Source: Bernardetia sp. ABR2-2B
GTDB taxonomy: Bacteria > Bacteroidota > Bacteroidia > Cytophagales > Bernardetiaceae
NCBI RefSeq assembly: GCF_037126435.1
Contig: NZ_CP147020.1
Coordinates: 4,973,001 to 5,037,000 of the forward strand
Direction: 5' to 3'
DNA: 64,000 bases
Shown here: positions 38,694 through 55,462 of the stretch, piece after piece
How the letters are laid out: every line of letters starts with the position of its first letter
How positions within the stretch are numbered: the stretch's first letter is position 1
The notes under the pieces: generated by a model
What the model was told of the DNA's origin: nothing
What the model saw: the letters and a program-made list of their open reading frames with translations, nothing else
Database searches by the model: none
Translations under genes and position numbers: made by a program

Positions 38694-38739
38694 ATTCGGT
38701 CAAAACGACAGGATAAAAAATAACATTTTGATAACTTTG
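38694..38739 (+). promoter_or_regulatory. late control block plus -7 box, copy 1
   Basis: ATTCGGTCAAAACGACAGG (38694-38712), then exactly 19 bp, then TAACTTTG (38732-38739) inside the palindrome GATAACTTTGTTATC. There is no TTTG at -33; the block takes its place. The same layout occurs at 55417-55462. The block is between divergent genes 38656 and 38778, and on the other strand its TTTTGACC could serve the terminase side. Confidence 0.65.
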
Positions 38740-38777
38740 TTATCATTATTTATTATTTTACCAAAAAAAATAGCAAA

Positions 38778-39203
38778 ATGGCAAAAGTATTTTATTTAAA
38801 CATTGTAGAAGGTAAAAAAGAATATTCGTCTGCTGATTTAAAATCGTTAGATGGAAACACCTTCCAAAAAGTTTTGGGAACGCCACAGCATCAAAAGCAA
38901 ATGAATGTAGTTGTTTTAGAAGCTGAAACGGTCAAAAAACTGCAAAAAGGAGAGAAGCTCAATAAACTACAACTTGGAGAAGCAACACAAAATGAAGTAA
39001 AATCTCTTAGTTCTAAAAACGAGCTTTTGAAGTCTGAAAATGAGGAGCAGAAGTCTGAAATAGAGAAGTTACAAGCTAAGGTCAAAGAGCTTGAGGCACA
39101 GCAGAAAGAAGCAACTAAAGAGGAAGACAAAGCAACATCTCAAGAGGATGCTACCAAAGAAGAAACAAAAACAACAAGTAAAAAAACAGCAACAAAGAAA
39201 TAG
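38778..39203 (+). CDS. coiled-coil phage protein, 141 aa
   Basis: The N-terminal 60 residues form a small domain (MAKVFYLNIVEGKKEYSSADL), then a long coiled coil (KNELLKSENEEQKSEIEKLQ) and a Lys/Glu/Thr-rich tail. First gene of a rightward unit behind a late-type control block and before the scaffold-like gene, so a structural or assembly role is likely. Confidence 0.6.
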   Translation: MAKVFYLNIVEGKKEYSSADLKSLDGNTFQKVLGTPQHQKQMNVVVLEAETVKKLQKGEKLNKLQLGEATQNEVKSLSSKNELLKSENEEQKSEIEKLQAKVKELEAQQKEATKEEDKATSQEDATKEETKTTSKKTATKK

Positions 39204-39268
39204 ATACTCGCTAGTTGTTGTTTAATAGCCTGTTAGAAAATATTTTTCCACATTAAAATTTATAAATT

Positions 39269-40066
39269 TTGGATTACGAAAAAGGATATAGAAAATTCAA
39301 AACTATTTGGGAAAGGCTTGGTGGTAGTGTTTCTGAATCAGATGAAGGTATAGAAATTGATGAGAATCAAATTATCACTTCTATACTTTCAGACGAAAAC
39401 AAAACAAAAACAATCATCGAAGAAGCTGCTCAAAAAAGAGAAAGTTTACTAATAAGTAAACTACGCAAAGAAGCTGCAAACTTGGGCGTTGAGGGCATTG
39501 ATGAAGAAAAAGACATCAAAAAAATTATTTCTGCTACAAGCTCTCATCTGACTAAATCGGCTGGTAGTGATAAGCAAGAACTTTCAAAACTTAATTCAGA
39601 ATTACAAACTCAGCTTCAAGAAACCAAAAAATTACTTGAGCAAAAAGATGTTGAGGTTCAAACTACTATTGATGAAATCAAGAATCAATCTGAATTGCAA
39701 AAACAGCGTCTTGACAGAAATTACGCTGCGATGAATAAGCTAACATCACTAAACTTAACAGACGCTGCAAAGGCAAATAGCTCAAGGCTTGTTGATTCTT
39801 TCATTTCTAATACTTTAGATAAGTATGAATTTAAAGAAGAAAACGGAAAGCAAGTAGCTTATAAAGATGGCAAAAAGCAGTTTAAGAGCGATTTGATAGG
39901 AGGCGAAACTTCGTCCGAATTAGTTACAATGGACGACATCGTAGAATATGAAGCTAAGACTCTTGGCTTCATAAAAAGCACAGATGCAAAAGGAGGAGGT
40001 AATTTGGATACACCTCCAATACCTGCAACTGCTCATCAAATCAATGATCCAAGTCCAGGCGTCTGA
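39269..40066 (+). CDS. scaffold-like capsid assembly protein
   Basis: A 265-residue, highly charged and helical protein. The central coiled coil runs from about 95 to 150 (ELSKLNSELQTQLQETKKLL), and the C-terminal part ends in a flexible Pro/Gly-rich tail (GGGNLDTPPIPATA). This is the make-up of phage scaffolding proteins (GP20-like). Only TTG 39269 is available as a start near the beginning of the frame. A prohead protease is not recognised beside it. Confidence 0.55.
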   Translation: MDYEKGYRKFKTIWERLGGSVSESDEGIEIDENQIITSILSDENKTKTIIEEAAQKRESLLISKLRKEAANLGVEGIDEEKDIKKIISATSSHLTKSAGSDKQELSKLNSELQTQLQETKKLLEQKDVEVQTTIDEIKNQSELQKQRLDRNYAAMNKLTSLNLTDAAKANSSRLVDSFISNTLDKYEFKEENGKQVAYKDGKKQFKSDLIGGETSSELVTMDDIVEYEAKTLGFIKSTDAKGGGNLDTPPIPATAHQINDPSPGV

Positions 40067-40102
40067 CAAATGACCAGCAACAAAAAAACTAAAAAATAAA
40101 AA

Positions 40103-40681
40103 ATGAAAACTTACGCTACTCAAAATCCGATTGCCAAAACAGCGATGTTGTTTGGAAGAGAACCTGCTAGAAGCTGCTTTAAAAATGTTCATATTAGGAC
40201 ATTTCAGAGAAAGACAAAAGCAGTTAGAGAAATTGAGCTAAAAAAAAGAAATGATAAAATATTCTTTTTATTTAATCAAGGTTTTAGTATCAATAAAATC
40301 TCTAAAATAGTAGAATTGGACTGGCATTGGTGCAAGAAGATTCTTCAAAAAGAAGGGCTTGTCCCTGCAAAAGTCGATACAGAAAAAGTATTGTCTGAGT
40401 TTTACTTAGTTGATTTACCAAACCGAACGAAAACTTCTGAAATTTTAGAAGCTGAAAAAAAATATAAAGAATCAGGTAAAAACCTTCAAAAACTCATAAA
40501 AAAGTGTGAGAAGGAAAAGGTTGATAACAGATTATTTAGGCAAAAATATAAGCAATACAAATTTCAAGTTGAGGTAAAAGGACGTAGAGCATCTGTCAAT
40601 AGACTTGCAGAGCTTTTGGGCTGGAGTAGTGTAAAAACAAAAAAAGTAGCGAAAAGGCTACGATTACAAATTTTTATTTAA
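40103..40681 (+). CDS. HTH DNA-binding protein, candidate late regulator
   Basis: A 192-residue strongly basic protein with two HTH-like segments: residues about 53-80 (LFNQGFSINKISKIVELDWHW) and about 165-190 (RLAELLGWSSVKTKKVAKRL). It could be a transcription activator for late genes or a DNA-packaging accessory; neither can be decided from sequence. It lies in the rightward unit with the scaffold-like gene. Confidence 0.55.
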   Translation: MKTYATQNPIAKTAMLFGREPARSCFKNVHIRTFQRKTKAVREIELKKRNDKIFFLFNQGFSINKISKIVELDWHWCKKILQKEGLVPAKVDTEKVLSEFYLVDLPNRTKTSEILEAEKKYKESGKNLQKLIKKCEKEKVDNRLFRQKYKQYKFQVEVKGRRASVNRLAELLGWSSVKTKKVAKRLRLQIFI

Positions 40682-40697
40682 TCTTTAAATTTATATT

Positions 40698-41114
40698 ATG
40701 GAAACTCCTAAAAAGTTAGGTACTGCAAATTTGATTTTCTTGCTCACATTCCTTGTTGTTATCGCAAAAAAAGTAGAAGAAGGAGCTGCTGACGGAAAAC
40801 TCTCAAGAACCGAAATAATGGGTATTATTTGGTTTGCTCTTATGAATGGAGGCTTGGGAGCTGTAAACAAACTTTCAGATGCTGGACAAGAGGCTTTGGA
40901 TTTGGATGAGCAGGAAAAAGAAGAAATCAATATTCATTTTAAAAATGAATTTGATTTATCGAATGAAGAAACAGAAGTCTTAGTGGAAAATATATTTGGA
41001 TTATTGCTTCAAATATTCTCTTTCTATTTAAAAGTTCGTTCTATGTTTGGTAACAAAAAAGCAAAAGAAGTTCAATTAAAATTAGAAAAACTTGATTTGA
41101 AAAAAATCGCTTAG
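40698..41114 (+). CDS. membrane-associated phage protein, 138 aa
   Basis: Hydrophobic segments at about residues 10-25 (ANLIFLLTFLVVIAKK), 41-56 (IIWFALMNGGLGAV) and 100-118 (VENIFGLLLQIFSFYLKV) surround an acidic middle. Two or three short helices could make this a holin or another membrane protein. It ends the unit before terminator 41142-41176. Confidence 0.5.
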   Translation: METPKKLGTANLIFLLTFLVVIAKKVEEGAADGKLSRTEIMGIIWFALMNGGLGAVNKLSDAGQEALDLDEQEKEEINIHFKNEFDLSNEETEVLVENIFGLLLQIFSFYLKVRSMFGNKKAKEVQLKLEKLDLKKIA

Positions 41115-41141
41115 TGCGTTTTAGTAGTTAAGTTGAATAAT

Positions 41142-41176
41142 AAATCCCCTGCTAGTATGGTACTAGCAGGGGATTT
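41142..41176. terminator. perfect bidirectional terminator, copy 1
   Basis: A 16-bp perfect stem, AAATCCCCTGCTAGTA and its complement, around loop TGG, followed by TTG. The whole 35-bp structure is repeated identically at 41638-41672. Confidence 0.9.
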
Positions 41177-41240
41177 TTGCAAAATTCTATTTATATTTGA
41201 TTTTGTTGATAATTTTAGCTTATTATTTAAATAAAAAACT

Positions 41241-41633
41241 ATGAACCTACAATTAGAAGAGCTTAGAAAGCTATATGAATACTTAAAAGATTATTTTCCT
41301 AATCTTTCTATGATTATATTAAGTCATAATCATAAAGTTGAAAAATTCCCAAATCAAAGAGTTTATGTAGAAAGACAGTTCTTAGATAGTAATATGGTAA
41401 GATTACAATTACTATATACAAGTAGAATATCAAATACAAGAATTGTAACTGAATTACAATTTTTGCCAATAAAAAGTGATTACTCTTCTTCTGTAAATTT
41501 AGATAGTGGAGGGCTTCATCAAAAAAACATACAATTTGGTTTGATAGATAAAGAGTTTTTGAAAGAAGATATGGCGCATAGAGAAGTAGATTTTTTAAGA
41601 AAGATTTATGATAAACCAATAATAGAAAGTTAA
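41241..41633 (+). CDS. accessory protein, 130 aa, between twin terminators
   Basis: A charged protein beginning MNLQLEELRKLYEYLKDYFP, with strand patterns (MIILSHNHKVEKF, QLLYTSRISNTRIVTELQF) and an acidic end. It stands alone between two identical terminators, so it is expressed separately from the virion genes; a moron. Function unknown. Confidence 0.5.
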   Translation: MNLQLEELRKLYEYLKDYFPNLSMIILSHNHKVEKFPNQRVYVERQFLDSNMVRLQLLYTSRISNTRIVTELQFLPIKSDYSSSVNLDSGGLHQKNIQFGLIDKEFLKEDMAHREVDFLRKIYDKPIIES

Positions 41634-41637
41634 AAAA

Positions 41638-41672
41638 AATCCCCTGCTAGTATGGTACTAGCAGGGGATTTT
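41638..41672. terminator. perfect bidirectional terminator, copy 2
   Basis: The same 35-bp hairpin as at 41142-41176, without a change. It serves the rightward gene ending at 41633 and the leftward gene ending at 41677. Confidence 0.9.
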
Positions 41673-41676
41673 TGTT

Positions 41677-41883
41677 TTAATCAGCTTTTTCAATTTTTAT
41701 GAGTACATCTTCATACTCTCTAATTAAATTTAACATCTGATTATTTTTAGCTTTTCTTTTCTTATGAAAATCTAAATCTAATTTTGAGGTTTTGTTATTA
41801 GCTTCTCTAATAACGTCTAATGTAGATTCTAGTGATTTTTTTAAGAGTTCTATTTCTCTTTCATTGAAATTTGTAATGTACAT
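41677..41883 (-). CDS. accessory protein, 68 aa, under the 55-bp element
   Basis: A small helical protein (MYITNFNEREIELLKKSLES ... MLNLIREYEDVLIKIEKAD). Its start lies 11 bp from the inverted copy of the 55-bp element, so it shares the leader of the gene at 34130 although the proteins are not visibly similar. Confidence 0.5.
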   Translation of the reverse strand: MYITNFNEREIELLKKSLESTLDVIREANNKTSKLDLDFHKKRKAKNNQMLNLIREYEDVLIKIEKAD

Positions 41884-41894
41884 AATGTAAAAGT

Positions 41895-41949
41895 TTTGGT
41901 TGTCGTTTAATTACACTGTGTACACGATACACAAAGGGAATGGTTACGA
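41895..41949 (-). repeat. 55-bp control element, copy 2 (inverted)
   Basis: The reverse complement matches 34063-34117 at 51 of 55 positions, including GTGTACAC and the terminal AAACGACAACCAAA. It is oriented toward the leftward gene starting at 41883. The two copies face each other across 7.8 kb. Confidence 0.75.
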
Positions 41950-41978
41950 GTTTCTAGACTTTTTTTTAAAAAAAATAT

Positions 41979-41986
41979 TATATTTG
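41979..41986 (+). promoter_or_regulatory. -7 box candidate for the gene at 42010
   Basis: TATATTTG matches TAnnTTTG and lies 23 bp before ATG 42010. No clear TTTG is at -33. Confidence 0.35.
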
Positions 41987-42009
41987 TTTACAACCTAAAT
42001 TAAAATTAT

Positions 42010-42393
42010 ATGTGTTTAATACCTATATCTATAAAAGATATTAATATTATTGATAATCATATTTCTCCTTCAGTTTCTTCTTTGAAAATAGTTTCAGATA
42101 AGAAAGAGACTAATTTACAAGTTTTTAACTTGAAAATTTACCCAATAGAAAAGCATGATGAGGAAAATGACCTAATGTTTATAGAAAAAGTAGTTAGCTT
42201 TGAAATGGCTAATTTTAGGGTGTTTTATCAAGAAGATAATAGTATAGAAATAAAAATTTATACACCTAAAGGTAACTTTAAGCTTGGTTACTTTGAAATA
42301 AATGAAAAAGTCAATATTACTGTATCAAATATTTCTTTAGTAGAATTTTTAGTAAATGAAAGTCGTGGAGGTTATATAGAATCAATAAAATAG
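42010..42393 (+). CDS. accessory protein, 127 aa
   Basis: Strand-rich, with repeated short beta segments (FLIKKVVSF-like EKVVSFEMANFRVFYQEDN, SIEIKIYTPKGNFKLGYFEI). It ends 1 bp before the stop of the convergent head-protein gene with no terminator between. An isolated rightward gene among leftward virion genes; function unknown. Confidence 0.5.
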   Translation: MCLIPISIKDINIIDNHISPSVSSLKIVSDKKETNLQVFNLKIYPIEKHDEENDLMFIEKVVSFEMANFRVFYQEDNSIEIKIYTPKGNFKLGYFEINEKVNITVSNISLVEFLVNESRGGYIESIK

Positions 42394-42394
42394 A

Positions 42395-43216
42395 TTATTC
42401 TATTATAATAGGTATGGCTCTATGTCTGCAATTCCACCCTCCACGCTTTACAATGAAATTATTTTCATTTGTGTTTGGCTTCATTCCACTGCCATTTCTG
42501 TAAGCCCATTTTATTTCTTTATCTAAGTTCTCTATTTTGAGAACTTTTTTTCTATGCCATTTTTCGCATTGTGGTCTTGAGTCTTTTACTAATCCTCCTA
42601 CATATCTATAAGCATTCATATCGTATTCGATGGCTATAGTTTGGTTTACAACTCCATCATATTCATAAAGAGCATCACGAGCTATTTGATTGACATACCT
42701 TCCAATAGCTCCTTCACTTTCCATTCCTACAATTCTTTCTCTTAATAGTTTGGTAGCTCTCTGCGTACCAAAACCAAGCTCTATACTTTCTAATAATATA
42801 CGTCGGATTGGAGCAATGGCATTGGCATTTACATTTGAAGTGGAAAGACTAGCAGATACGGCATTGACAGCAAGTTCTTTTGATTTAGCTATATTATTAA
42901 TAATAGTTTCAGTAAATTCTATCTTATTAAGAGATGCATGTATGGCTTGATTGTTTTCTACTATCTTATCAAAAGAACTCAAAAGCTGTGAAGTAAGTGA
43001 CTCAAACTTTTTTGATTTTGCTATTTTCTCTAGCTTTTTAACAGCTTCTAAAATAGCTTCTCTGTTTGATGAATTTTTTGTATATTTATTCTCGTTGTCT
43101 GATTCTAATTTTTTGAGCAGTTTTTCTACCTCACTCATCAACTCTTTGTCAATTTTTTTAGCATCACGAAGTAGCAATTCTATCAAAACTTCTATTTCTT
43201 CAAATAATTTTTTCAT
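42395..43216 (-). CDS. phage head morphogenesis protein, Mu gpF/SPP1 gp7 family
   Basis: 273 residues. The N-terminal half is helical coiled coil (about 1-115). The C-terminal half holds the family signature: RDALYEYDGVVNQTIAIEYD, then SRPQCEKWHRK and GGWNCRHRAIPI, with Cys217/His221 and Cys263/His265 as probable metal ligands. Such proteins are minor head components required for capsid assembly. It lies after the portal gene, the usual order, but is separated from it by a hairpin (43255-43282). Confidence 0.8.
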   Translation of the reverse strand: MKKLFEEIEVLIELLLRDAKKIDKELMSEVEKLLKKLESDNENKYTKNSSNREAILEAVKKLEKIAKSKKFESLTSQLLSSFDKIVENNQAIHASLNKIEFTETIINNIAKSKELAVNAVSASLSTSNVNANAIAPIRRILLESIELGFGTQRATKLLRERIVGMESEGAIGRYVNQIARDALYEYDGVVNQTIAIEYDMNAYRYVGGLVKDSRPQCEKWHRKKVLKIENLDKEIKWAYRNGSGMKPNTNENNFIVKRGGWNCRHRAIPIIIE

Positions 43217-43254
43217 CGTCTATTATAATTAGCAATTAAAACGCACTCTAAAAA

Positions 43255-43282
43255 AAGTTTAGCAAGTTGCTAATAAACTTTG
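43255..43282 (-). terminator. hairpin between portal and head protein genes
   Basis: AAAGTTTAGCAA pairs with TTGCTAATAAACTTT (3-nt bulge) around G. Read leftward it is followed by a T run, so portal transcripts may end or be attenuated here. Confidence 0.55.
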
Positions 43283-43334
43283 TTTGTTTTTTTGATATAA
43301 TGTATATCTGCTAATTTTAATAGCTTAAAACGCA

Positions 43335-44972
43335 TTAAATCAACTCGCCTAAATCATCTCTTTCTTGTACAGTTTGAGGTAGCTTCATCAGCTTACTTAC
43401 TTCATCTGTAATTTGGCTGTCATTCATTTTCAAAAACCCCATTTCATCACGATATGCGATTTGTTGTAAAACAGGAGAAAGCTGTATAGAATATTCAAAA
43501 TCTTCATCATTACTGGCTGCCAATCTTTTTTCATTTACAGAAGCATAAAGATGTAGTTTGTCGTAAGTGATTTGGTAGATGTTTATTTTATAAGCTACTA
43601 AATCTTTTTGATACATCATTTTGTATAATTTTCTATACGCAGTCGATAAAACAGAAAGAGGTACTCCTTTTTCTTTGAGTTCGGAAATAATCTCAAGTTG
43701 AGCAGAAATAGTTACTTTTCTGAAATCGTCTGGAATTGTAACCCTTACAATTTCTCTTTTATTTAGAATGTTTCTAAAATCTTGGCAGATTTGAAAACAA
43801 AATTCAACTACAGAAAAAACACGCTCACCAATCACATTGACTAGAGCATCTTTACCTTTCATATCAAGGTCCTTTGCAGCTCCTGATTGATTGAGATAAA
43901 TATCATTGATATTGAGAGCTTTTTCCATTCTCGCTAAATCTCTTTCAATAATCTCATCTTTCATTTTGATACCTTCTACTGGAGGAGTAGCGTATTTTAC
44001 TATATCCTCAATGGAAATATCATTCATAAAGTCTTGATGTTCAAAATCAAGATACATCACATCATTTATATTAGATGTTATTTTTTGAACGCCTGTACCT
44101 TGACAGGTTGGGCATTGTTTCTTTTGGTCATCTTCATAGATATAACCTTGGTTACAAGAATCGTTATCACAAGGTTTGCGCTTCATAAGCGTAAGCAAGT
44201 GATGAACTAATATCTCAAGCTGCCAGTCCGACTTGTTTTTTGTAGCTAGATTTGCGTGAGCAAATGCAGGGCTTAAGAATGATTTATAATAATTCACTCC
44301 ATCTTTTTCTCTTAACAGTCCACCTAACTTTTTGGCTGGAATATTTTTGAGTGGAGCTTCTGAAAAATCTACGAAATAATAATTTGGATCATTTGGATTA
44401 TTAGCAACTACCCAATTACTATTTTTTCTGTAAAAACGAGTGGCGTAATTTTTAGTAACTATATAATATAGAGTAAAATCTTGGTTTACTTGTTTTTTGA
44501 AAACAATATGCTCGGAAGAGAAATCTACAACATTTTTATAATTGACAATCCAAAACTGAACAGCTAGTGGTTTGCTAGAGTCTATAAATTGAGGCATTGC
44601 AACTACAAAAGCGTTTGGATCATCAAGTGTTGTTGGTATAATCTTATTATATAGAGTTTGCCAAAAAGAAATTTCGTTCATGTAAAGAGTTGTATCCTCT
44701 TTGCACTCTATATTTATAAGTTTATAATCTAGCGCATTATTTAAAGCTCGTAAAGTGTCTCCAAAAGCATATTCTGTAATAGGCTCATAGAGTTCTATTC
44801 TCCTTTTTAAAACTGAATTCTTTTCTGTAATTCGATAGTTCTTCAAAAGAGGCTCAATACTTTCTCCTTGCGTATGTATTATAGCCCTTTCATAGTCTTT
44901 GTTTATTTTATCAAAAACAGGAGGGCGTTTATCGCTTTCGAAAGACTTCAAGTAAGTTGCTAAATCAAACAT
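43335..44972 (-). CDS. portal-like protein with a zinc-ribbon insertion
   Basis: 545 residues. Size, position between head-morphogenesis and tail genes, and the segment order (helical start, beta-rich wing, the stem-like EIIERDLARMEKALNINDIYL, then a C-terminal helical crown) fit a phage portal; no alignment could be run. An unusual insertion has Cys268, Cys273, Cys287 and Cys290 in the pattern C-x4-C-x13-C-x2-C followed by GTG, like a DnaJ zinc ribbon. The metal site could stabilise the ring or contact the terminase. Confidence 0.6.
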   Translation of the reverse strand: MFDLATYLKSFESDKRPPVFDKINKDYERAIIHTQGESIEPLLKNYRITEKNSVLKRRIELYEPITEYAFGDTLRALNNALDYKLINIECKEDTTLYMNEISFWQTLYNKIIPTTLDDPNAFVVAMPQFIDSSKPLAVQFWIVNYKNVVDFSSEHIVFKKQVNQDFTLYYIVTKNYATRFYRKNSNWVVANNPNDPNYYFVDFSEAPLKNIPAKKLGGLLREKDGVNYYKSFLSPAFAHANLATKNKSDWQLEILVHHLLTLMKRKPCDNDSCNQGYIYEDDQKKQCPTCQGTGVQKITSNINDVMYLDFEHQDFMNDISIEDIVKYATPPVEGIKMKDEIIERDLARMEKALNINDIYLNQSGAAKDLDMKGKDALVNVIGERVFSVVEFCFQICQDFRNILNKREIVRVTIPDDFRKVTISAQLEIISELKEKGVPLSVLSTAYRKLYKMMYQKDLVAYKINIYQITYDKLHLYASVNEKRLAASNDEDFEYSIQLSPVLQQIAYRDEMGFLKMNDSQITDEVSKLMKLPQTVQERDDLGELI

Positions 44973-44988
44973 AATTTTGTTCTAATAA

Positions 44989-45056: not shown

Positions 45057-45656
45057 TTAATACGCTACAGCAGCAAGTGCCTTGTACAAACCTGCTAAAC
45101 GTCTTGGAGTAGGGATTCCAACACCATCCCAAACTAAATCAAAAACGATTTCAAACTTTTCAATTTCCCCTTCGTTTGCAATATCTCCTGTATTTGCCAT
45201 AGAAATTTCACAACGATAAAGGCGTAAATCATCATTTTTTGTAACTGTGAAAATGTGAAGCTGACGATTGTTAGCAACACGTTTCATTTCATTAAAGAAA
45301 TCATATTCTGTTGCAGTTGCTTGACGCTTGTCATATTCATAAGTTAGTGTCAAGTTAGCTCCTACTTCAACGTCATTCAATCCTGTTCCACGTGAGATTG
45401 TACGAGGTGTTTGTTTCGGACGAGCTTTGGTAATTGCTTTCAAAACTTTCAAATCACCTGCTGTAATATCAGCTTGAAAATCAGCAATGGCAGCCCAAGC
45501 TAATGTTGCTTCGTGATTACAATGAAAAAAACCGATTACCGTTTCAGCTCCTACTTCTAGGGTTTCTGCATCACAGGGTACAATCGTTGTTGTGAAAGCG
45601 TCTATTGTACAGTTGTCTGCACAAGTATTATTTGAAATGTCATCTACTGTAAACAT
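45057..45656 (-). CDS. candidate major tail tube protein
   Basis: A 199-residue acidic, beta-rich protein. The start carries several Cys (NNTCADNCTIDAFTTTIVPCD), then a body with long strands (VGANLTLTYEYDKRQA, QLHIFTVTKNDDLRLYRCEI, KFEIVFDLVWDGVG). Size and composition suit a tail tube or similar abundant virion protein, and a strong terminator follows. The name is an inference from context. Confidence 0.45.
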   Translation of the reverse strand: MFTVDDISNNTCADNCTIDAFTTTIVPCDAETLEVGAETVIGFFHCNHEATLAWAAIADFQADITAGDLKVLKAITKARPKQTPRTISRGTGLNDVEVGANLTLTYEYDKRQATATEYDFFNEMKRVANNRQLHIFTVTKNDDLRLYRCEISMANTGDIANEGEIEKFEIVFDLVWDGVGIPTPRRLAGLYKALAAVAY

Positions 45657-45668: not shown

Positions 45669-46463
45669 TTAAGTGCAAATAAAGTCTTGTTCACAAGCCA
45701 ATGTTTTCAATCTAAGTACAGGATACCAATCGCTAATCACGTTTTGACTTGCTTCTATATTTCCTTCAAATTTCTCAAATTCAAAATGCTTATCTACTGT
45801 TTCGGTTAAAACGACAGCTCCACGCATCACTGATTTAGTAAAATGAGCGTGTAACCAAGTCCCTGGAATAAGTCCGAATCCTTGACGATTAAAAGAGAGT
45901 TGATAGACATCTCTTATTTCTTCAGATATGATTTTATCATCACTTTTTACAGTTTCAGATTCATTTGCTACGTGTTCTAAGAGCGCATAAATACGAATTT
46001 GATTAGAATAGCTGCCTGTATAATTATTCCCTAAACAATCGCTAGTGTCGTAATAGCTGCTTATTAGAATCGTACTATCATGGCAATCGACACCTACTCT
46101 TTCATACGCAAACTCAAAACAGCAGAAAGAACCATCTTTTCTTTCTAACTCTATATAAAAACATCTTTCGTTGCTAGGAATATCAGCAAAAGTAATGGTA
46201 AGTATATTGTTGGAAGCCCAAGAGTTTTGAAGTTGAATAAGACTATTATCTATCCTTTTCAAACGAACATTTACTATTTTAAAATCTACTGCAATAGTAA
46301 AAATATCGCTATCCAAAAAAGGCATTTTGTAGCGAATACAAGGAGGGCAAGAAGTACAAGGTGTAATGCTTACACATTCGTATAATTCTGTAATATCTCT
46401 AGTTCTTGTAACTGTTCCAGTTTCTATTTTAGTGTCTGTTAGACTATATGAAAAAGTCGCCAT
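45669..46463 (-). CDS. virion protein of unknown function, 264 aa
   Basis: Beta-rich with many cysteines (CVSITPCTSCPPCIRYKMPF, CFYIELERKDGSFCCFEFAY). It overlaps the preceding gene by 20 bp and precedes the tail-tube-like gene, so it is a probable tail component. A copy of the 17-bp late word (45801-45817) falls within its coding sequence. Confidence 0.5.
   Translation of the reverse strand: MATFSYSLTDTKIETGTVTRTRDITELYECVSITPCTSCPPCIRYKMPFLDSDIFTIAVDFKIVNVRLKRIDNSLIQLQNSWASNNILTITFADIPSNERCFYIELERKDGSFCCFEFAYERVGVDCHDSTILISSYYDTSDCLGNNYTGSYSNQIRIYALLEHVANESETVKSDDKIISEEIRDVYQLSFNRQGFGLIPGTWLHAHFTKSVMRGAVVLTETVDKHFEFEKFEGNIEASQNVISDWYPVLRLKTLACEQDFICT
45801..45817. repeat. intragenic copy of the late control word
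   Basis: TTCGGTTAAAACGACAG is identical to 17 consecutive bases of the block at 55417-55435 and differs by one base from the block at 38694-38712. No -7-like box lies 19 bp further. It is read as VVLTE by the gene on the other strand. Confidence 0.6.
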
Positions 46464-46750: not shown

Positions 46751-49700
46751 TTATAACAAATTGTTTGTAAAGTTTTTAAAATTCTTTAAAATTAATTTAT
46801 TTGTAGTGTCTCCTAATGTACCAATATTATTTATCTCTCTATAAGATGGGTTTACATTAATTTGCAAGTTATCATATATAAAAGCATGTTGATTTCTATC
46901 AACTTGATCTGCATCCAAAAAATAACTTGCCATCGATTCTTTATTTATAGGATTATCTGAAATAGATATACCTAATTCTCTAATAGATTTTGGGACAAAA
47001 TTAGTTGGCTGATTATTATTAGAAGTTCCAAATTCTAATATATCTGTTAATCTTCCTGTTAAAACAGGGAATGGGGCTGATGGTGTTCCTGAATTACTTA
47101 TCACACCTTCGTAGAATAAATTATTTACACATAATATAGGTTCTGAAAATGTAGTTAAAGCATTTGTTGTATTACCTATTTTTTTTATTGACATTGAACA
47201 TTTATAGATTCCATTTTCGGCTAAAGGTGTTTCAAATATACATCTCAAACTTTGAACTCCTCCCGAAAGAGCACTTACACCTGTTTGTAAAAAGAAGCCA
47301 AAACCTTGTGTAGATGCATTTATGTTAAATGTTGTAACTAGCATAAATCTAGCATTTATGTTTGCGCCATCAGTGCTAGAAAAACTTATTATTCTTTGCC
47401 CTCCTGCAACTAATTTAATTTTAACGATAAAATCTATATTTATATATTTATCATTTAGTATGGACGCAAAATCAATAAGATTTTTAAAATCATTATTTTC
47501 TTGTTCAAATAAATCATTTACGCCATCAGGTTCACAAGATTGTACATTTGTCCCATCTCCTGTAATTGGATAAGCGAAATTATAAAGAGGCAATGCAGGG
47601 AAACCTACTTCTACATTTGGAGCTTCTATTTGATTAACTGTTAGACTTACGCTTATAGCTGTTGTGCTTGTTCTTGCAAAATAAAGATGAGGCACAAAAG
47701 AGTTATTAGGACTATTTGCACCGCCTAAACCATTTGAGTAAGTTACCAAATCTTCATTATCAGCAATCTCTGTAAATGTTCTTTTTGCAGATGATGATGT
47801 TGCTGTGCCTCCTATATACGTAACAAATGTGAAATTCATATTCAACCCTGTGAAAAGCATCATATCGCCCGCAGATATATTCAATTCAACTGGAATATTT
47901 AATGTTTTCGGATTTACTGCCACTTCGCTAAATCGCATCTCTAAATACCCTGCAATATTCAACTGTTCCGTTTCAGCAGGTTGCGTTCCTATATAACGAA
48001 CCATTATCCTTGTTCCTGCTGTAATAGAAAGAGCTGCAAAAGCTGCAAAAGTCAAATCCGAAAAAGCAGCCCAAGCATTATCATTTGCGTTCAGAGGTGT
48101 AGTATCTGTACCAACTCTAAACAAGAAATCATCGCTTTCAAAACCGTTTACGGCTGCAAAACTTTTCCCTGCACCATAATCATATTCAGCTTCAAACACG
48201 ACATTACGTCCTGTTTTAGTAGTAGCTTGAAAAGGGTGGCGAATAAATGATATAGGCAAAGGAGGTGGATAACCTATCATTCCAACTTCTCCTGTCGTAA
48301 CTTCATTTGTAATTTTATGATTTACAACATTATCAGGCAATACAGTGTCAAATTGTATTTCTACATCTGACTGGAAAGCATTACTAGCTTGAGTAAAAAC
48401 AGAAATAGGACTCCACGCCTCCTCTTCATATACATTGCCATTTTCATCTTTCCAAATAGCAGCTTGTGCATAATTTACGCTTTCGGCTGTTTTAATGGTT
48501 TCTACTCGCAGGAAATTAGCATCACAAGCTGTATCTCCTTCTTCCAATAATTCCACTCCATTTTTATACAATTTAATTTCTGTCAAATTTGGAATTGCTT
48601 TATTTTGCTCCATTTGTGTAACAGAAATTCTTTGTGGAAAAGCAATGGTAGTATATTCTACATTAAAGTTTATATTCCATAATATGTCAATTTCGGAGTT
48701 TTGCCATTCTTCTTTTACTCTTAAATAAAAACGAATAATTAGAGAGCCAGAAGAATCTGAAAAAACAAAGCGATTAGAGTTTTCGAAACTACCTTGGTTG
48801 TTTTTGCCAATAAAATTAAATGTTTCGCCTCCGATTTTTACATTTCCTCCCAAATATGCAGCATCAAATCCTGTATATTTATCTAAAGTGATTTCGCAAC
48901 AAAGTCGTTGTAAAGGAGAAACTTCTAAATAGTTTGTAAAGAAATTAGCTACTAGGCTATATATTGTACCTGTTATGCTAGGAGTTAAAAACTTCACATC
49001 AGTTACAAGAATAGCATCACTTATATATGAAGCTACATATTCATTTGCAGAATCGTAATAAACTGCAATAATGAAATATCTACCTCCACTATTCAGTCTA
49101 TTTTTATCAATAACAAATGATGTTTCGTAAGTATTCCCTCCAACATTTACAGGCACAGGAACAGAAAAATAGTTTGTCGGCTGATAACCATAGGATTTTT
49201 TAAAATCTAGCCTTTGAACTGTATTATCAGCATCAATAACCCAAACTTTTGCGTTAGAAATCGCACTTGAATGGTCAATTCTAAGAGTTACATCAGTGTC
49301 TTCAAAAGTTGCAAATTCAGTTTCTATATCTCCATTTCTTGAAAGCTCAAAGACAGGATTTGTCATTGTTCCTTCATTCAAAAAGACAAATTCAGCATTT
49401 ATCCATGCATCTGAATATTCGTATCGACTTGGTATTATTGAAGTAGGTTGTGGGCAATATATTTCATATTCCCAAGCAGTTCCAGACTTACCAGCCACAC
49501 GCACAACTATTTCATCTCCAGCTTGGCAATTAACCCAAATTATTTGCTGATAGTTACCAAGTGTAGCTGATGAAATACCTGTATTTGCTATAAAGTCTGC
49601 TAAACGATCATCAAAAGGGCTTGCATTTTGACCAATAAACCAAAAATTAGGGTTAGGGACAACAACTGGGTTTGGATGACTTCCTAACGGATAACCTGCA

Positions 49701-50452
49701 CCTGCATTACCGTCAAAACCATCAACTGCACCGAAGTTATTTCCTGCACTTACACCTGAGCTTGCTGTAAGGTTTCCATTTACAAATATTTCTAATTTAT
49801 CAACAACTCCATACGCTTGAAATCTAACAGCAAAAAGCTCTCCTTCTGCAATGTATTTATTTTCAGTTATTCCATCTTTTCCTCTATTTCCCTTCGTGCC
49901 ACACAACCTTGATAATTCAGGCACTTTAATTCCTGTATGTATTCCAATTCCTTTTGAGTTGGAATTGTAAACAGAATCTTCTAAGTTTTCTAATTCAGCA
50001 GCATTTTTAGTGTTTCCTAGTAATCGAATAGAATTATCAATGCCATTATCATTTAAAAAAGTCAAAATATCAGCAGTAAGAAAACAAGTAAGACGAATTT
50101 TGAACGATAATCTATCAGCGTTTAATTCAAAAGTAACTGAACTATTGCGCTCACTTGCGTTTGAATTTAGCAAATTCATTGTATGTTCTACTCCTGTAGT
50201 TGTAGAAGCCGTTACCTTATACCAATAGCTTATATCAGGAGGCAAAGTTTGACTTTGCTCTAATATTATACCTTGTTCTACAAAAAGCGCAGGATTGAAA
50301 TATATTTCACAATCATTCAAAGACTGGTCAAAAGAGTAATCTAAAGTCAATATTCTTTCTTCTCCAAATGATCCATTCAGAACACCTGTAGTAACTGGAG
50401 TTAAAAAACTATCTTTATCCTGCCAAGATTTTCCATTAAGTATTAAAGCCAT
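46751..50452 (-). CDS. large tail fibre/receptor-binding candidate, 1233 aa
   Basis: A long Ser/Thr/Asn-rich, beta-strand-dominated protein. The N-terminal part (LILNGKSWQDKDSFLTPV, GVLNGSFGEERILTLDYSFD) probably attaches to the tail. The C-terminal roughly 270 residues look like a concanavalin/LamG-type sandwich (DYINIDFIVKIKLVAGGQRI-like pattern, FGFFLQTGVSALSGG). Position next to the baseplate-like gene and its size suggest host recognition. The exact fold was not tested. Confidence 0.6.
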   Translation of the reverse strand: MALILNGKSWQDKDSFLTPVTTGVLNGSFGEERILTLDYSFDQSLNDCEIYFNPALFVEQGIILEQSQTLPPDISYWYKVTASTTTGVEHTMNLLNSNASERNSSVTFELNADRLSFKIRLTCFLTADILTFLNDNGIDNSIRLLGNTKNAAELENLEDSVYNSNSKGIGIHTGIKVPELSRLCGTKGNRGKDGITENKYIAEGELFAVRFQAYGVVDKLEIFVNGNLTASSGVSAGNNFGAVDGFDGNAGAGYPLGSHPNPVVVPNPNFWFIGQNASPFDDRLADFIANTGISSATLGNYQQIIWVNCQAGDEIVVRVAGKSGTAWEYEIYCPQPTSIIPSRYEYSDAWINAEFVFLNEGTMTNPVFELSRNGDIETEFATFEDTDVTLRIDHSSAISNAKVWVIDADNTVQRLDFKKSYGYQPTNYFSVPVPVNVGGNTYETSFVIDKNRLNSGGRYFIIAVYYDSANEYVASYISDAILVTDVKFLTPSITGTIYSLVANFFTNYLEVSPLQRLCCEITLDKYTGFDAAYLGGNVKIGGETFNFIGKNNQGSFENSNRFVFSDSSGSLIIRFYLRVKEEWQNSEIDILWNINFNVEYTTIAFPQRISVTQMEQNKAIPNLTEIKLYKNGVELLEEGDTACDANFLRVETIKTAESVNYAQAAIWKDENGNVYEEEAWSPISVFTQASNAFQSDVEIQFDTVLPDNVVNHKITNEVTTGEVGMIGYPPPLPISFIRHPFQATTKTGRNVVFEAEYDYGAGKSFAAVNGFESDDFLFRVGTDTTPLNANDNAWAAFSDLTFAAFAALSITAGTRIMVRYIGTQPAETEQLNIAGYLEMRFSEVAVNPKTLNIPVELNISAGDMMLFTGLNMNFTFVTYIGGTATSSSAKRTFTEIADNEDLVTYSNGLGGANSPNNSFVPHLYFARTSTTAISVSLTVNQIEAPNVEVGFPALPLYNFAYPITGDGTNVQSCEPDGVNDLFEQENNDFKNLIDFASILNDKYINIDFIVKIKLVAGGQRIISFSSTDGANINARFMLVTTFNINASTQGFGFFLQTGVSALSGGVQSLRCIFETPLAENGIYKCSMSIKKIGNTTNALTTFSEPILCVNNLFYEGVISNSGTPSAPFPVLTGRLTDILEFGTSNNNQPTNFVPKSIRELGISISDNPINKESMASYFLDADQVDRNQHAFIYDNLQINVNPSYREINNIGTLGDTTNKLILKNFKNFTNNLL

Positions 50453-50458
50453 AATCTA

Positions 50459-52024
50459 CTATATTATTCCTGCAACTGTAATTTCTTTTGCAGATGCGTT
50501 GATTTCAATTTTTAAGTTTTTTCCGATTCCAAAGCCTGTTCTGACTTGTTTATCTTTGGCATTTAACCAAGTTTGATAGTTCTCACAATCCAAATTAAAT
50601 TTTGATGTAAAAGAGAATCTTGGATAGCCACTTGAGCGTGGATTATCGATTGCTAGAAAGTCATTATATACATTCTCAGCGTACCAAGCTTTGTTGAAGT
50701 CTTTGATGATGTTTCTGCGTTCATTCCAGTCTAAAATTTTAGGGTTGAAGGCTATCCCATTATGAAGTAATAGCCAATTTTTATACTTACCTGTATTTAT
50801 TTTGAATAAATCCAAGAGAAAAATATCATATCTTTCATATACCGTATTTCTTATTTTATCTCCAATCTGACGGTGTGGACTGAAAGTAATTGGATACTCT
50901 TTCTTTCCTTCTTGTAAATCAGAAACTGGCAAATTCCATTCTTGAATATGCCTATACCATTCGCCTTTAGATTCGTTTCCAACCAAGTCAGTTCCATCTT
51001 CTAAAAATTGCACAAAGGCAAAAGCTGGAGGTTTTTCATCTAATGTTTGATAGCATGTAACAGTATCATTAGGAAGTTCTAATAGCTCAGTGGTATCAAA
51101 AAAATCTTTACGTTCTACAAAGAGTGTATAACCTGCTGGAGTTTCGACGACTCTCCAATCTATATTCATTGTAGCAAAATCATTCAAAAAATCTTCAGCA
51201 GTTTTTAGAGGCAAATTCTCACGAATTACACCTGTAAAACTATTTCTTTCTGTACCTTCTTTTGTTTGTGCTGCGAAATAAATACTATTGTAATACTTAC
51301 TACCAACACTATTAAAAATGGTGCTTGAAAGTGTCGCACCACATGTATCACAGAAGTCTTGTAAATACGTGCGAATGTATGGGCTTGGATGTTTGCGATT
51401 GCAAGGAAACATTACTTTCTTTAACTCATTTACGAGCGTGCTGTACAAACGAAGTTCTTTTTTTACATTTAATTCTCTACCTCCAATCAAGTCTGAAATA
51501 GCTCCAACAATTACAGCAATAATAGTAATAGCAGGAGATAGAACAGTAAGAATAAGAATAGCAATCAATCCTAAAACGATAATTACATCGTGTAAAAACT
51601 GAGGTCTTCCTTCATTACAATAAGGAATAAGAGGATGTTTTTCATTTTTGATTTTATTGCCATCTCCAATAAAATGCTGACGTAAACAAAGTGTTATTTT
51701 ATCTTCTTCTGTTTTTTCGTAAGCCACAGCTGTAACAGAACATTCGTTATCACACCATTCTAATGCATCACCTCTTATTTCTCCAATAAAAAAATCAACA
51801 TCTTGAGCGCAACAATCGTCTATTATCTTAATAGAAAGTGTTTTGATTTGACCTAAAGAATCATTTATCAACTCATCAAAAATCATATCATAAGCCACTC
51901 CAAAAAAAGTGAACTCTTGAGTTACGCTTGTCTGTCTATCTTTTCTTGCAGCAATTTCTTTTGTAAAATCGCTAGTTTGATAATCAGATTTTGAGAGTAA
52001 TATATTGTTTAAATATACTTTCAT
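50459..52024 (-). CDS. tail tip/baseplate protein with a hydrophobic hairpin, 521 aa
   Basis: Residues 1-115 are a beta-rich start (MKVYLNNILLSKSDYQTSDF), typical of distal-tail proteins. Residues 147-181 form a long hydrophobic segment (VIIVLGLIAILILTVLSPAI). The rest is mixed, with SVGSKYYNSIYFAAQTKEG and a C-terminal strand region. It starts 4 bp inside the tape-measure gene end (ATGA overlap). The hydrophobic segment could insert in the host membrane during DNA injection; this is inferred. Confidence 0.55.
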   Translation of the reverse strand: MKVYLNNILLSKSDYQTSDFTKEIAARKDRQTSVTQEFTFFGVAYDMIFDELINDSLGQIKTLSIKIIDDCCAQDVDFFIGEIRGDALEWCDNECSVTAVAYEKTEEDKITLCLRQHFIGDGNKIKNEKHPLIPYCNEGRPQFLHDVIIVLGLIAILILTVLSPAITIIAVIVGAISDLIGGRELNVKKELRLYSTLVNELKKVMFPCNRKHPSPYIRTYLQDFCDTCGATLSSTIFNSVGSKYYNSIYFAAQTKEGTERNSFTGVIRENLPLKTAEDFLNDFATMNIDWRVVETPAGYTLFVERKDFFDTTELLELPNDTVTCYQTLDEKPPAFAFVQFLEDGTDLVGNESKGEWYRHIQEWNLPVSDLQEGKKEYPITFSPHRQIGDKIRNTVYERYDIFLLDLFKINTGKYKNWLLLHNGIAFNPKILDWNERRNIIKDFNKAWYAENVYNDFLAIDNPRSSGYPRFSFTSKFNLDCENYQTWLNAKDKQVRTGFGIGKNLKIEINASAKEITVAGII

Positions 52025-55000
52025 CGTTTTGTATTCCTCCTTTCTATTTTTCTCTTGACTTTAGAAGTCATTTCAAAAACACCTTCTTTGGAAATACCCA
52101 TATTATTTTGAACATCTACTTTCACAGCTTCAGTCAAACCCTCTACTTTTGTATTTAGCATATCTAAACGCTCTTCCATTCCACGCATATCAGCACCAAC
52201 TGGCATATACATTTCAGGTGTTAACGTGTAGTTTGGTGTATTAAAAATATCTCTATCAGTTAGTTTGCCTTCATTTATGAGTTTTAAAGCTCCTTTTGCA
52301 TTACGAGTACCCTTTGCTGTAATGATAGATTCACGGTTTGAAATAGCTACAATATTAGAGTCTGAACGTTCTCCTCCCTTACCTTTGAAATCAACAACAC
52401 CATCTTTAAATGCGCCAGAAACAATTTGAGTAATAGCAACTATACCAGCTCCTACACCTCCGATAACAGCAGCGATACCAGCCAAACCTCCTTGAGCTGC
52501 TCCTTGTACAATAGCAGAGATAGCATTTATGAGAGCCTCGGCTGCTGCAATACCTCTTTGCCTTTCTACACTTCTTTGCCTTTTTGCTTCAAGCTCGTCA
52601 AGTCTTTTTTGTTCTTGCTCAAGAAGTGCTGCATTTCCTTTTTCTGCTATTTTTTCAGCATCTTCTACACGCTTACGCTGTCTATCTGTAAGCTCGTCAA
52701 GTGCTTCAATCTGCTGAGAAACTAATTCATTTAAAACTGAAAAGATAGCGCCGAAAGTCTCCTCTACAATAGCTAGTGTTTCTTGTAGCTTTGATTGTTT
52801 TTCATCCTCAGCTTTCTTTTGATTTTCAACATCCTCTTCATACAAATCATTGCGAAGCTGCTGAACTTCAATAGCAATCTCACGCTTACGAGCTGCGCTA
52901 GTAGATTCTAATTCTTCTTCACTATTTAGCGTTTCGATGAGCTGCTCAACTCTGAACTTACGAGTTTCAAGAAGTGCATCACGATATTGCCTTTCTGTTA
53001 GTTCGCCTGTCAATAACTTTTCACGCAAAAGTTCTTCTTCCAAAGCCAATCCATCTTCCACGATAGAACGAGCATTTTCAACACTATCCAAATTTATTTG
53101 TTGAACATCTTGTGCCGTTTGAGAATAGATGTCTTTGCGTTTGGCAGCAAACTCTAAATCAAGTTTTTCAAAAAGAATATTTTTGAGTTCTTCATCTTCA
53201 ATATTTTCATCTAGCAACCTTCTAGCTTCTTGCTGTTCCTTATCTAGCAACTCTATTTCAGCCTGTGTATTAGCTGCCAAAAGTTGTAAACGCTCACTTT
53301 CAGAACGCTCGGTATCTGAAAGAATCTCATCATTTGCTTTTTTGAAACGAGCAACACGAAGTTTATCGACTTCTAAGAAAGCAGCCGAAATATCATTGGC
53401 TATTTTCTTAATGCCTTTGCTAAGTGTTTTTTCTGTCAAATCAATCTGACTAGCTAGTAAGTCTTCACGAAGCCTTATACCTGCCTCAATTTCCACCTCT
53501 GAAAGTCCTGCTGACTTAGCTTTTTCTTTAAACTCTTTTATAGAATTACTATACTCAGACAATAGTTTGTCTGTATCTAACTGAAATTGTAATTCTAAAC
53601 TTTCTTCATTATTTGGTAATAAATCAATTTTATTCTGACGAAGCTGAAATTCTAATGTTTGTGTCAAATCTGATAGAGCTTGTCTTGCTTCTTTTAGTTT
53701 TTTGATTTGGTCATCAGTAAGTTTATTACCTTCTTTTTTTGCATCATTATTTTGATTAGATGCCTTTGTATTCAAATCGATATTTGAAGAAGTAAATCCT
53801 AGAGCAGAACGCAAACCCTTCAATGTTTCTTCTTGAAGTTTTATACTTTTGTCTAATGCGTCAGCTTCATTTCTGAATTTTACTAATTTTATTGGATTGT
53901 AAGTTTCATCGATGAGCTTCTCATATTGTTTTGCTTGTTTGAGTTGTCGCTCTAATATTGCTTCTCTATCTTTTATCTGTTCTTCTAATTGCTCTCTAGT
54001 TAGTTTATTTACATTTGCTAAGTTATTAGAAACTGATTTTTTGACAATCGCATCAAATAAATCTAAAGTCTGAATAACAGAATTAAGAAATTCTATTCCA
54101 TTTGCTTTTGCGTTTTTATAGAACTCGTCTATATTTTTACTCAAACCTTCAAAAGTTGCTGCTAGTTCAGCTTCCTCTTTTGCTAATCTACGAGCAGTCT
54201 CTAATTCTTTCTGCTGTTTTTTACCCAACTCATCAAGTGAGTCAAGATTTGAATTTTGAGCTTTTGTGATTAATTCATACGCTTTTTCTAACCCTCCCAA
54301 ATCTTCAAGCGCACCACCACCCAAATCAGCAATAAGTTTTTGAGTCTGTTGAGTAGTCAAACCTACTTTTTGAGCTTCATCTACTATAGATTTGAATATA
54401 GAGATTATATCTTTTTCGCCTTTTGCTAAGTCTTTTTGAATTTGATTACTGAAATTTTTACCCAAAGGACTAAGAGCTTCTAGTTGAGCTTTATCTAGCT
54501 CACGAAGCCTTAAGCCTAGCTCTTTAATGGTATCGGGTAATTTGTCTGCAATAAACGAACTACCTGTTTGTGCGCCAGTAGAAACAGTTTTAATAAAATC
54601 TTGAGCCGAAACATTTGCATTTTTAAATTGAACAGGATATTCTTCTAAAAGAGATAGAAAATCTCCTGTTGTATCTGCTCCTTTCAAAAAACCTTTTTCT
54701 ACCAAATCCAATGCTTCAGTAAAAGAAATGCCATAAGCATCAGCAAAATTCTTTGTAGATTTCAGAATTTCATCTTCTGTTTTTCCATACGTTTCTGCAA
54801 GTGCTACTACATCGCTAGTGGCGTTTTGTAAAGTTGTTCCCTGTAATCCAGAGAAACGTTGTACAGTAGCAAAAAGAGTAGAGTATTTTTTATCAATATC
54901 TACTAAATAACGTCCAAACTCTAAAGCCTTCTCTCCTACAAATAAAGCAGCTCCTACTAAACCTGCTTTGGTAGCAAGTCCTCCCAAACTTGAGCCAAGT

Positions 55001-55380
55001 CCGTTGCTACTTTTTGAAGTCTTGCCTAATGATTCTTGGTAAGAATCTAAAGACTTCTTTTTCTTGTTTATTTGGTCTTCATAATCTTTAAATTGCTTCC
55101 TTCCTTTTTCGGTAGATAAATCTAATTTTCTTTGTGCTTTTGTAAGGTCAGAAATAGAGTTTTCTAATCCATCTATGCTGTTTTCACTTGCCCTTACAGC
55201 TTTAGCTAGTTTTTCTTGTAGCTTTTCAGACTTACGCATAGCTTCAGTCCACTCCAAAGAACCTTCTTTTGATTCGTTGATGGTTTTGTTGAGCTTTTTG
55301 AGATATTCTTCAGCGTTTTTTATTGCCGTATCATCTACTTTAAACTCAAATTCTGATAGTATTTTTGCGAAATCTGCCAT
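52021..55380 (-). CDS. tail tape measure protein
   Basis: 1119 residues, the largest helical virion protein. Coiled coil covers about 15-120 and much of 380-960 (Lys/Glu/Leu-rich repeats). A hydrophobic Gly/Ala stretch lies near 125-155 (GLGSSLGGLATKAGLVGAALFVG) and another near 960-1010 (GGLAGIAAVIGGVGAGIVAI), the usual layout of tape measures that set tail length and form the injection channel. A long flexible tail is therefore predicted. It begins the leftward tail operon at the second late control region. Confidence 0.85.
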   Translation of the reverse strand: MADFAKILSEFEFKVDDTAIKNAEEYLKKLNKTINESKEGSLEWTEAMRKSEKLQEKLAKAVRASENSIDGLENSISDLTKAQRKLDLSTEKGRKQFKDYEDQINKKKKSLDSYQESLGKTSKSSNGLGSSLGGLATKAGLVGAALFVGEKALEFGRYLVDIDKKYSTLFATVQRFSGLQGTTLQNATSDVVALAETYGKTEDEILKSTKNFADAYGISFTEALDLVEKGFLKGADTTGDFLSLLEEYPVQFKNANVSAQDFIKTVSTGAQTGSSFIADKLPDTIKELGLRLRELDKAQLEALSPLGKNFSNQIQKDLAKGEKDIISIFKSIVDEAQKVGLTTQQTQKLIADLGGGALEDLGGLEKAYELITKAQNSNLDSLDELGKKQQKELETARRLAKEEAELAATFEGLSKNIDEFYKNAKANGIEFLNSVIQTLDLFDAIVKKSVSNNLANVNKLTREQLEEQIKDREAILERQLKQAKQYEKLIDETYNPIKLVKFRNEADALDKSIKLQEETLKGLRSALGFTSSNIDLNTKASNQNNDAKKEGNKLTDDQIKKLKEARQALSDLTQTLEFQLRQNKIDLLPNNEESLELQFQLDTDKLLSEYSNSIKEFKEKAKSAGLSEVEIEAGIRLREDLLASQIDLTEKTLSKGIKKIANDISAAFLEVDKLRVARFKKANDEILSDTERSESERLQLLAANTQAEIELLDKEQQEARRLLDENIEDEELKNILFEKLDLEFAAKRKDIYSQTAQDVQQINLDSVENARSIVEDGLALEEELLREKLLTGELTERQYRDALLETRKFRVEQLIETLNSEEELESTSAARKREIAIEVQQLRNDLYEEDVENQKKAEDEKQSKLQETLAIVEETFGAIFSVLNELVSQQIEALDELTDRQRKRVEDAEKIAEKGNAALLEQEQKRLDELEAKRQRSVERQRGIAAAEALINAISAIVQGAAQGGLAGIAAVIGGVGAGIVAITQIVSGAFKDGVVDFKGKGGERSDSNIVAISNRESIITAKGTRNAKGALKLINEGKLTDRDIFNTPNYTLTPEMYMPVGADMRGMEERLDMLNTKVEGLTEAVKVDVQNNMGISKEGVFEMTSKVKRKIERRNTKR

Positions 55381-55416
55381 ACCACAAAAATACTCTGATG
55401 TGCCTCCATTCTTTGT

Positions 55417-55462
55417 ATTCGGTTAAAACGACAGGCTTTGAGATATTTTTTACTCAAATTTG
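55417..55462 (+). promoter_or_regulatory. late control block plus -7-like box, copy 2
   Basis: ATTCGGTTAAAACGACAGG (55417-55435), then exactly 19 bp, then CAAATTTG (55455-55462), one mismatch from TAnnTTTG. The layout is identical to 38694-38739. It lies between the divergent tape-measure (start 55380) and capsid (start 55576) genes. The leader of the capsid gene would be about 110 nt. Confidence 0.65.

Follow-up and report, generated by a model that had tools for sequence, protein, structure and literature searches.

A Mu-like prophage in Bernardetia sp. ABR2-2B carries a 19-base-pair (bp) block, ATTCGGTYAAAACGACAGG (Y being C or T), in two divergent intergenic regions between its virion operons. 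The prophage lies in a 64,000-nucleotide stretch of DNA (contig NZ_CP147020.1, positions 4,973,001 to 5,037,000), which we call the window and to which all positions below refer. The block is repeated, is confined to this prophage within its genome, and has promoter-like boxes on both sides at closely similar distances; its spacing and its right half are kept in one relative. Judged from the sequence, we put at about one half the probability that a phage-encoded DNA-binding protein recognises the block and through it co-regulates the late (virion) operons. Such a regulator would probably act as an activator, with a geometry like that of the Mor and C proteins of phage Mu.

A block repeated in two divergent late regions

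The two intergenic copies are found on the forward strand at 38694-38712 (site 1, ATTCGGTCAAAACGACAGG), between the leftward terminase small subunit gene (terS) and a rightward scaffold-like gene, and at 55417-55435 (site 2, ATTCGGTTAAAACGACAGG), between the leftward tape measure gene and a rightward putative capsid gene. The original prediction, which was made from the window alone, had placed the block at exactly these positions. It had counted two copies and the rightward boxes; a third copy and the leftward boxes are additional. The third copy, TTTCGGTTAAAACGACAGC, matches at 17 of 19 bases and lies at 45800-45818, also on the forward strand, inside the minus-strand tail-operon gene 45669-46463. 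The residues encoded there are not conserved in the related prophage C84, which is described below.

When up to three mismatches were allowed, the window held three matches to the block as against 0.03 expected, and none of 100 shuffles reached three. The intergenic regions of sites 1 and 2 have 18 of 19 bases in common, a level reached in 0 of 4,000 dinucleotide shuffles (maximum 17). Across the 5.38-Mb genome, the three copies were the only matches with up to two mismatches. With up to three there were six, all in the forward orientation, while the reversed-pattern control gave two and one. A weaker test used a 16-base core, which was found three times, each time exactly; 0.68 matches were expected at up to three mismatches, and one of 100 shuffles had three. 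Chance likeness might be suspected in AT-rich DNA that has several exact repeats of 17-18 nucleotides, yet these counts from the window and the genome, the 4,000 shuffles and the random-pair tests given below make it highly improbable. A site for a host regulator is not favoured either, as the genome outside the prophage has no match with up to two mismatches.

Promoter-like boxes on both sides of the block

Every position was scored against TAnnTTTG, and boxes were counted if they matched at 5/6 or 6/6. Their frequency is 1.4% over the positions of the phage and 2.2% over those of 13 chosen intergenic regions. The -7 box of the Bacteroidota primary sigma factor has been placed at -12 to -5 (PMC9723704), and predicted starts were derived from a box in that position. 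To the right of block 1, at a distance of 19 bp, is the perfect box TAACTTTG (38732-38739, plus strand; predicted start 38744), surrounded by the palindrome TGATAACTTTGTTATCA (38729-38745), which forms a hairpin in the DNA fold. To the right of block 2, again at 19 bp, is CAAATTTG (5/6; 55455-55462, plus strand; predicted start 55467). The exact 19-bp spacing at both sites, already part of the original prediction, was therefore confirmed. On the left, block 1 is followed at 25 bp by GACTTTTG (5/6; 38661-38668, minus strand; predicted start 38656) and block 2 at 24 bp by TATTTTTG (6/6; 55385-55392, minus strand; predicted start 55380). Block 3 also has a leftward box at 25 bp, GAAATTTG (5/6; 45767-45774, minus strand), with a predicted start at 45762 towards gene 45057-45656; this box sits in a TTTG-rich coding stretch and is weak. 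No rightward box was found for block 3, and rightward boxes are present only where the genes to the right run rightward.

Each predicted leftward start coincides with the first base of a start codon, the A of the terS ATG at 38656 and that of the tape measure gene at 55380. A box in register with a start on the ATG was seen in 4 of 53 phage genes of the window, these two included, and in 4 of 138 control open reading frames. The predicted divergent starts are 88 bp apart at site 1 and 87 bp apart at site 2. The block occupies -50 to -32 relative to both predicted rightward starts. Measured from the midpoint of its TCGGTYAAAACGA core, the predicted starts lie 42 bp away on the right and 45-46 bp away on the left.

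We compared these distances with those of random pairs of positions, accepting any distance from 0 to 59; overlapping draws were skipped yet kept in the denominator. An equal distance on the right was obtained in 1,072 of 100,000 pairs from the whole phage and in 1,558 of 100,000 intergenic pairs, so that the rightward spacing taken alone is a modest coincidence. Agreement on both the right and the left was seen in 43 of 100,000 phage pairs and 68 of 100,000 intergenic pairs, and a one-sided coincidence of three in 206 of 100,000 draws. Because boxes lie on both sides of the block, it probably controls divergent pairs rather than single rightward promoters. A reading of rightward promoters only was considered and is kept as a part, since the leftward boxes agree at least equally.

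By eye, TTTG is absent 17-23 bp upstream of the rightward box at both sites, with one at 14 bp at site 2. The original prediction had taken the missing TTTG at -33 as a sign that an activator replaces this contact. The absence itself held at both boxes; as an argument for an activator it is weak, since no -33 motif stands out in Flavobacterium (F. johnsoniae) (PMC7366714). A sigma-70 scan of site 2 gave one match as against 1.3 expected, in keeping with a promoter of a different type.

In the mechanism that we infer, which extends to binding, the sign of regulation, the start sites and the protein's identity, a single protein, probably dimeric or a monomer with two heads, would sit centrally between two divergent promoters. 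Its distance upstream of the start would be about 42 bp on the right and 45-46 bp on the left, beside or over -33, and it would most likely aid host RNA polymerase carrying the ordinary primary sigma factor. The leftward output would be terminase from site 1 and tape measure and tail from site 2, and the rightward output would be the scaffold-like and the capsid-like genes, respectively, such that the packaging, tail, scaffold and capsid operons would rise together. Block copy 3 would drive a leftward promoter within the tail operon.

Conservation of the site in related prophages

Part of the site is kept in a genome of the same genus (G003), where a prophage fragment on a contig of 3,838 bp (C140) holds site 1 only. 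Its proteins are identical to those of the window at 72% (terminase large subunit, TerL), 45% (TerS), 84% over 112 amino acids (scaffold-like protein) and 63% (the start of a relative of the protein encoded at 40103, discussed below). The divergent region aligns with that of the window free of gaps. Four-fold sites, which serve as a measure of background, are identical at 14 of 33 positions in the scaffold-like gene and 77 of 143 in TerL. Against this level, the leader that includes the leftward box is identical at 34 of 37 positions, the box itself being unchanged; the right half of the block, AAAACGACARG, is identical at 10 of 11; the rightward box with its palindrome at 23 of 23 (38725-38747); and the rest of the leader at 27 of 30. 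Identity drops to that of four-fold sites in the left half of the block (3/8) and in the next 12 bp (5/12), and the start of terS is identical at 38 of 57 positions. Within the window genome, the left half is the same at all three copies. The simplest explanation of a half-conserved block would be a binding protein that has retained its contact with one half and altered that with the other. Across 11 genomes of the family, the exact pattern AAAACGACARG-N23-TTTG, which we built after G003 had been seen, has three occurrences: site 1, site 2 and site 1 of G003. No further copy of the block in its G003 form was detected in G003; three other matches, with three mismatches, look like chance, and the contig does not extend over the remainder of that prophage.

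A second related prophage is carried by contig C84 of Bernardetia sp. MAG-102 (genome G006; JAHDBD010000035.1), which has the same divergent arrangement of terS and the scaffold-like gene. Identity to the window is 46% for TerL, 72% for one tail protein and 37% for the capsid-like protein. In C84, the genes from tape measure to portal run rightward beside the early genes, the terminase genes run leftward, and the scaffold-like and capsid-like genes run rightward; the boxes of terS and the scaffold-like gene are, by eye, spaced far more widely than in the window. When pairs of its late regions were compared with shuffles, two of three pairs scored high (3 and 5 of 500), through A-rich and terminator-hairpin arms, and the third did not (396 of 500). 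The repeats AAACAAAAGGTTAAA close to both ends of C84 (L014-L016) suggest a near-whole prophage. As C84 is without the block, the switch belongs to the branch of the window phage and G003 and not to the whole phage group. The original prediction had looked to related prophages for the block and its spacing; the box, the spacing and the right half recur in G003, and the block is absent from C84.

These comparisons bear on the possibility that the block is a boundary sequence, some short stretch of homology that was retained or has spread where modules meet and that does not itself regulate. At site 2 there is such a joint, of tape measure and capsid-like genes, which is absent from C84, module order and orientation differ between the window phage and C84, and block copy 3 is inside a gene. 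However, a boundary sequence would not be expected to keep the same distances to boxes on both sides, or its right half and spacing in G003 although only about half of the four-fold sites are identical there. Site 1, moreover, is no joint, as the arrangement of terS and the scaffold-like gene is the same in C84 and G003. We regard this explanation as unlikely.

Several observations weigh against a binding site for a late regulator. The block was not found in C84 (best match with at least five mismatches), nor do the late intergenic regions of C84 have a shared block of their own. Its left half is not conserved in G003, and the pattern AAAACGACARG-N23-TTTG, when one mismatch was allowed, gave 48 matches as against 91 for the reversed control. 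Block copy 3 is inside coding DNA, and exact repeats of 17-18 nucleotides occur in coding DNA elsewhere in the prophage. The threshold for boxes and the distance window were chosen after the sites had been seen. The rightward box of site 2 matches at 5/6 only, and other 5/6 boxes lie 8 and 53 bp to the right of block 2; second leftward 5/6 boxes lie 18 bp from block 1 and 16 bp from block 3. The 13-bp dyad of the core, judged by eye, is imperfect, scoring 8/13 at site 1 and 10/13 at each of the other two sites. Site 1 has another and better inverted repeat, TTTTGAC-ATTCG-GTCAAAA, that is missing from site 2; it folds strongly at site 1, and site 2 shows no such fold. The symmetry of the block is for these two reasons only a hint.

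Wider searches yielded few relatives. Among the genomes of 39 relatives (own included), four had a match to the block with up to two mismatches, and the three other than our own had one each, the level of the reversed control. At E 1e-20, TerL was found in its own genome only among 395 genomes of the phylum. The capsid-like protein had three matches, including its own, in 291 genomes of the order; the tape measure had two in five same-genus genomes (29% and 35%), both belonging to other phages that lack the block; and a 1,233-amino-acid tail protein was found, among seven same-genus genomes, in its own and G006. Five protein scans of IMG/VR gave no relative. One TerL scan of the same resource gave six, all of which lack the exact 16-base core, weaker forms not having been scanned. 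An IMG/VR DNA scan with 17 bases gave two contigs, of which L020 is GC-rich and unlike the window phage. Of two scans of GTDB contigs, the first had no match and the second returned the C84 contig. Phage records held no DNA match for 36610-40681, and the 728 records with a TerL match were all under 60% identity.

Candidate regulators

One candidate regulator of the block is a protein encoded at 40103-40681 (plus strand), in which a putative helix-turn-helix was recognised by eye. In Pfam, HTH_38 was matched below the cut-off in the G003 copy only, with no family for the window copy. Its 63% relative adjoins the partly conserved block in G003. Three matches, including its own and one weak (21%), were found in 291 genomes of the order, and a sequence search of the PDB gave none. 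At the matching place in C84 (7499-7798) no relative was found by BLASTP; profile comparison gave E 0.021 and a probability of 2%, and no relationship is claimed. The protein thus occurs where the block occurs, in the window and G003, and is unrecognisable in C84, which has no block. Its gene sits within the late operon that it would control. The putative recognition segment is the least conserved part of the protein relative to G003 (5/17 identical, as against 80/117 elsewhere; Fisher 0.0028), but an equally divergent stretch was obtained in 2,052 of 20,000 permutations, which is not significant after scanning. That the recognition segment and the block change together is a hint only.

The original prediction had named as a second candidate the protein encoded at 32913-33563 (plus strand), the last long gene of the early/middle run. 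No Pfam or PHROG match was detected for it. A search of 291 genomes of the order gave seven matches, including its own, and it has relatives in the block-less C84 (30%) and in G004. This protein therefore does not track the block, whereas the 40103 protein, though inside a late operon, retains its place as a candidate through the relative beside the G003 block. Neither protein had a match in phage records. The Mor family (PF08765) was found over the cut-off in none of three genomes (G000, G003 and G006), and in 1 of 14 controls. Of the earlier proposal of a late activator like Mu C, the shared site, a geometry like that of Mor and C and the spacing kept in G003 stand; no Mor- or C-family protein over the cut-off was found in the three genomes searched, and activation is inferred.

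The same site could serve with the opposite sign, a repressor or late autoregulator such as the 40103 protein binding the block to restrain or balance the divergent late operons. At the rightward promoters, -33 falls within the block, and the 40103 gene, which would be expressed from the promoter to the right of block 1, lies downstream of that block and has its relative beside the partly conserved block of G003. Site 1, with its perfect -7 box, could also fire unaided, given the lack of an evident -33 motif in Flavobacterium (PMC7366714). Distances near -42 and -46 on the two sides are, on the other hand, those of an activator and unlike typical operators, which lie over the start. Likewise, none of the 20 best-scoring block-like sites of the window falls in the region of the prophage repressor gene (23859-24380). 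We consider a repressor fairly unlikely, and a less probable reading than an activator.

The prophage and its other repeats

The Mu-like prophage spans about 23.6-63.5 kb of the window. It encodes a Mu-type transposase (rve over the cut-off, Mu-transpos_C slightly below it at 20.6 vs 21.7, PHROG transposase with E 3.1e-39), the AAA partner of the transposase (AAA_22 over the cut-off in Pfam) and a GemA-like protein with a score slightly below the cut-off (26.8 vs 27). With transposase and AAA partner both present, this is a Mu-like transposable phage. A 17-mer at 63484 and 63507 (63484-63523) has an inverted copy with two mismatches at 23590-23606, and these are likely the terminal repeats of the prophage, the right pair direct and the left copy inverted and imperfect; TG...CA ends with a target duplication of 5-8 bp were looked for at the prophage ends and not found. 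A tRNA-Cys (gca) gene lies within the prophage at 29513-29585.

The original prediction had set both sites between divergent virion units, and this holds by family for TerL (36610-38235, minus strand; PHROG terminase large, E 1.7e-22), terS (38216-38656, minus strand; PF10668 over the cut-off) and the tape measure (52021-55380, minus strand; PHROG, E 1.8e-10). The other two labels are by position only. The scaffold-like gene, the first to the right of site 1 (38778-39203, plus strand), had no Pfam match over the cut-off and no PHROG match under 1e-3, and the putative major capsid gene (55576-56652, plus strand), with its 37% relative in C84, had no match in either.

The block might instead serve some other phage function, in transposition, packaging or repressor immunity, and its three copies on a single strand, one of them in a coding region, would suit this. 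By eye, however, it is unlike the terminal repeats at 63484, 63507 and 23590, and no copy with up to three mismatches lies near either prophage end or the repressor gene. We consider such a function quite improbable, though not to the degree of chance likeness.

A second repeated element, GTCTAAWATAATTAGCA, lies in the intergenic region of site 1 (38666-38682, plus strand) and is identical in G003. Further copies are found at 33664-33680 (exact) and 43218-43234 (one mismatch), with no others at 0-1 mismatch in the genome; the copies at 33664 and 38666 also have TAACTTTGTTA in common. A 55-bp inverted repeat (34063-34117 and 41895-41949, 93% complementary), just upstream of two small open reading frames, flanks the terminase and scaffold-like genes, a group whose placing is different in C84. 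The sequence ACGACAACCAAA occurs four times, at 27247, 29596, 34106 and 41895 (minus strand), three times shortly before an ATG and once in a hairpin loop. An exact 38-bp repeat of a terminator-type hairpin (41142-41179 and 41637-41674) lies on either side of gene 41241-41633.

Comparison with known systems and implications

Late activators of phages are well known. At the middle promoter Pm of phage Mu, Mor binds a dyad centred at -43.5, and the arrangement proposed here resembles it in a site near -43, over or above -35, in the use of host polymerase and in belonging to a transposable phage (PMC4287176). It differs in that no Mor-family protein was found over the cut-off, in the Bacteroidota type of sigma factor and -7 box, and in the position of the site between divergent promoters. 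The site of Mu C recurs just above -35 of several late promoters (lys, I, P and mom), which is comparable to a single activator site repeated ahead of several late operons (PMC4461284). Unlike the Mu C system, the block has a different sequence and no relative of C was found. To our knowledge, the late promoters of Mu are not paired divergently. The Hankyphage of Bacteroides is likewise a transposable phage of Bacteroidota; a paper on it describes its CI-like repressor, and the main text does not use the words late gene or activator (PMC12135933). Our literature searches turned up no account of how late genes are controlled in transposable phages of Bacteroidota.

A more specific picture, which we offer tentatively and think rather less likely than its general form, is that of a compact two-sided late switch. 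One activator site within a divergent pair of 87-88 bp would fire both ways, giving leaderless leftward terminase and tail mRNAs and capsid-side mRNAs with leaders. Its specificity may shift between sister phages, one half-site being held while the other is exchanged at every site of a genome at once, alongside the regulator.

A site with the same geometry for both halves of a divergent pair, present in two places, makes a clear and testable module for a phylum in which sigma factor and promoters are unlike their E. coli counterparts. Should the left half of the block indeed change with the regulator, sister phages would provide a natural test of how the specificity of a switch changes.

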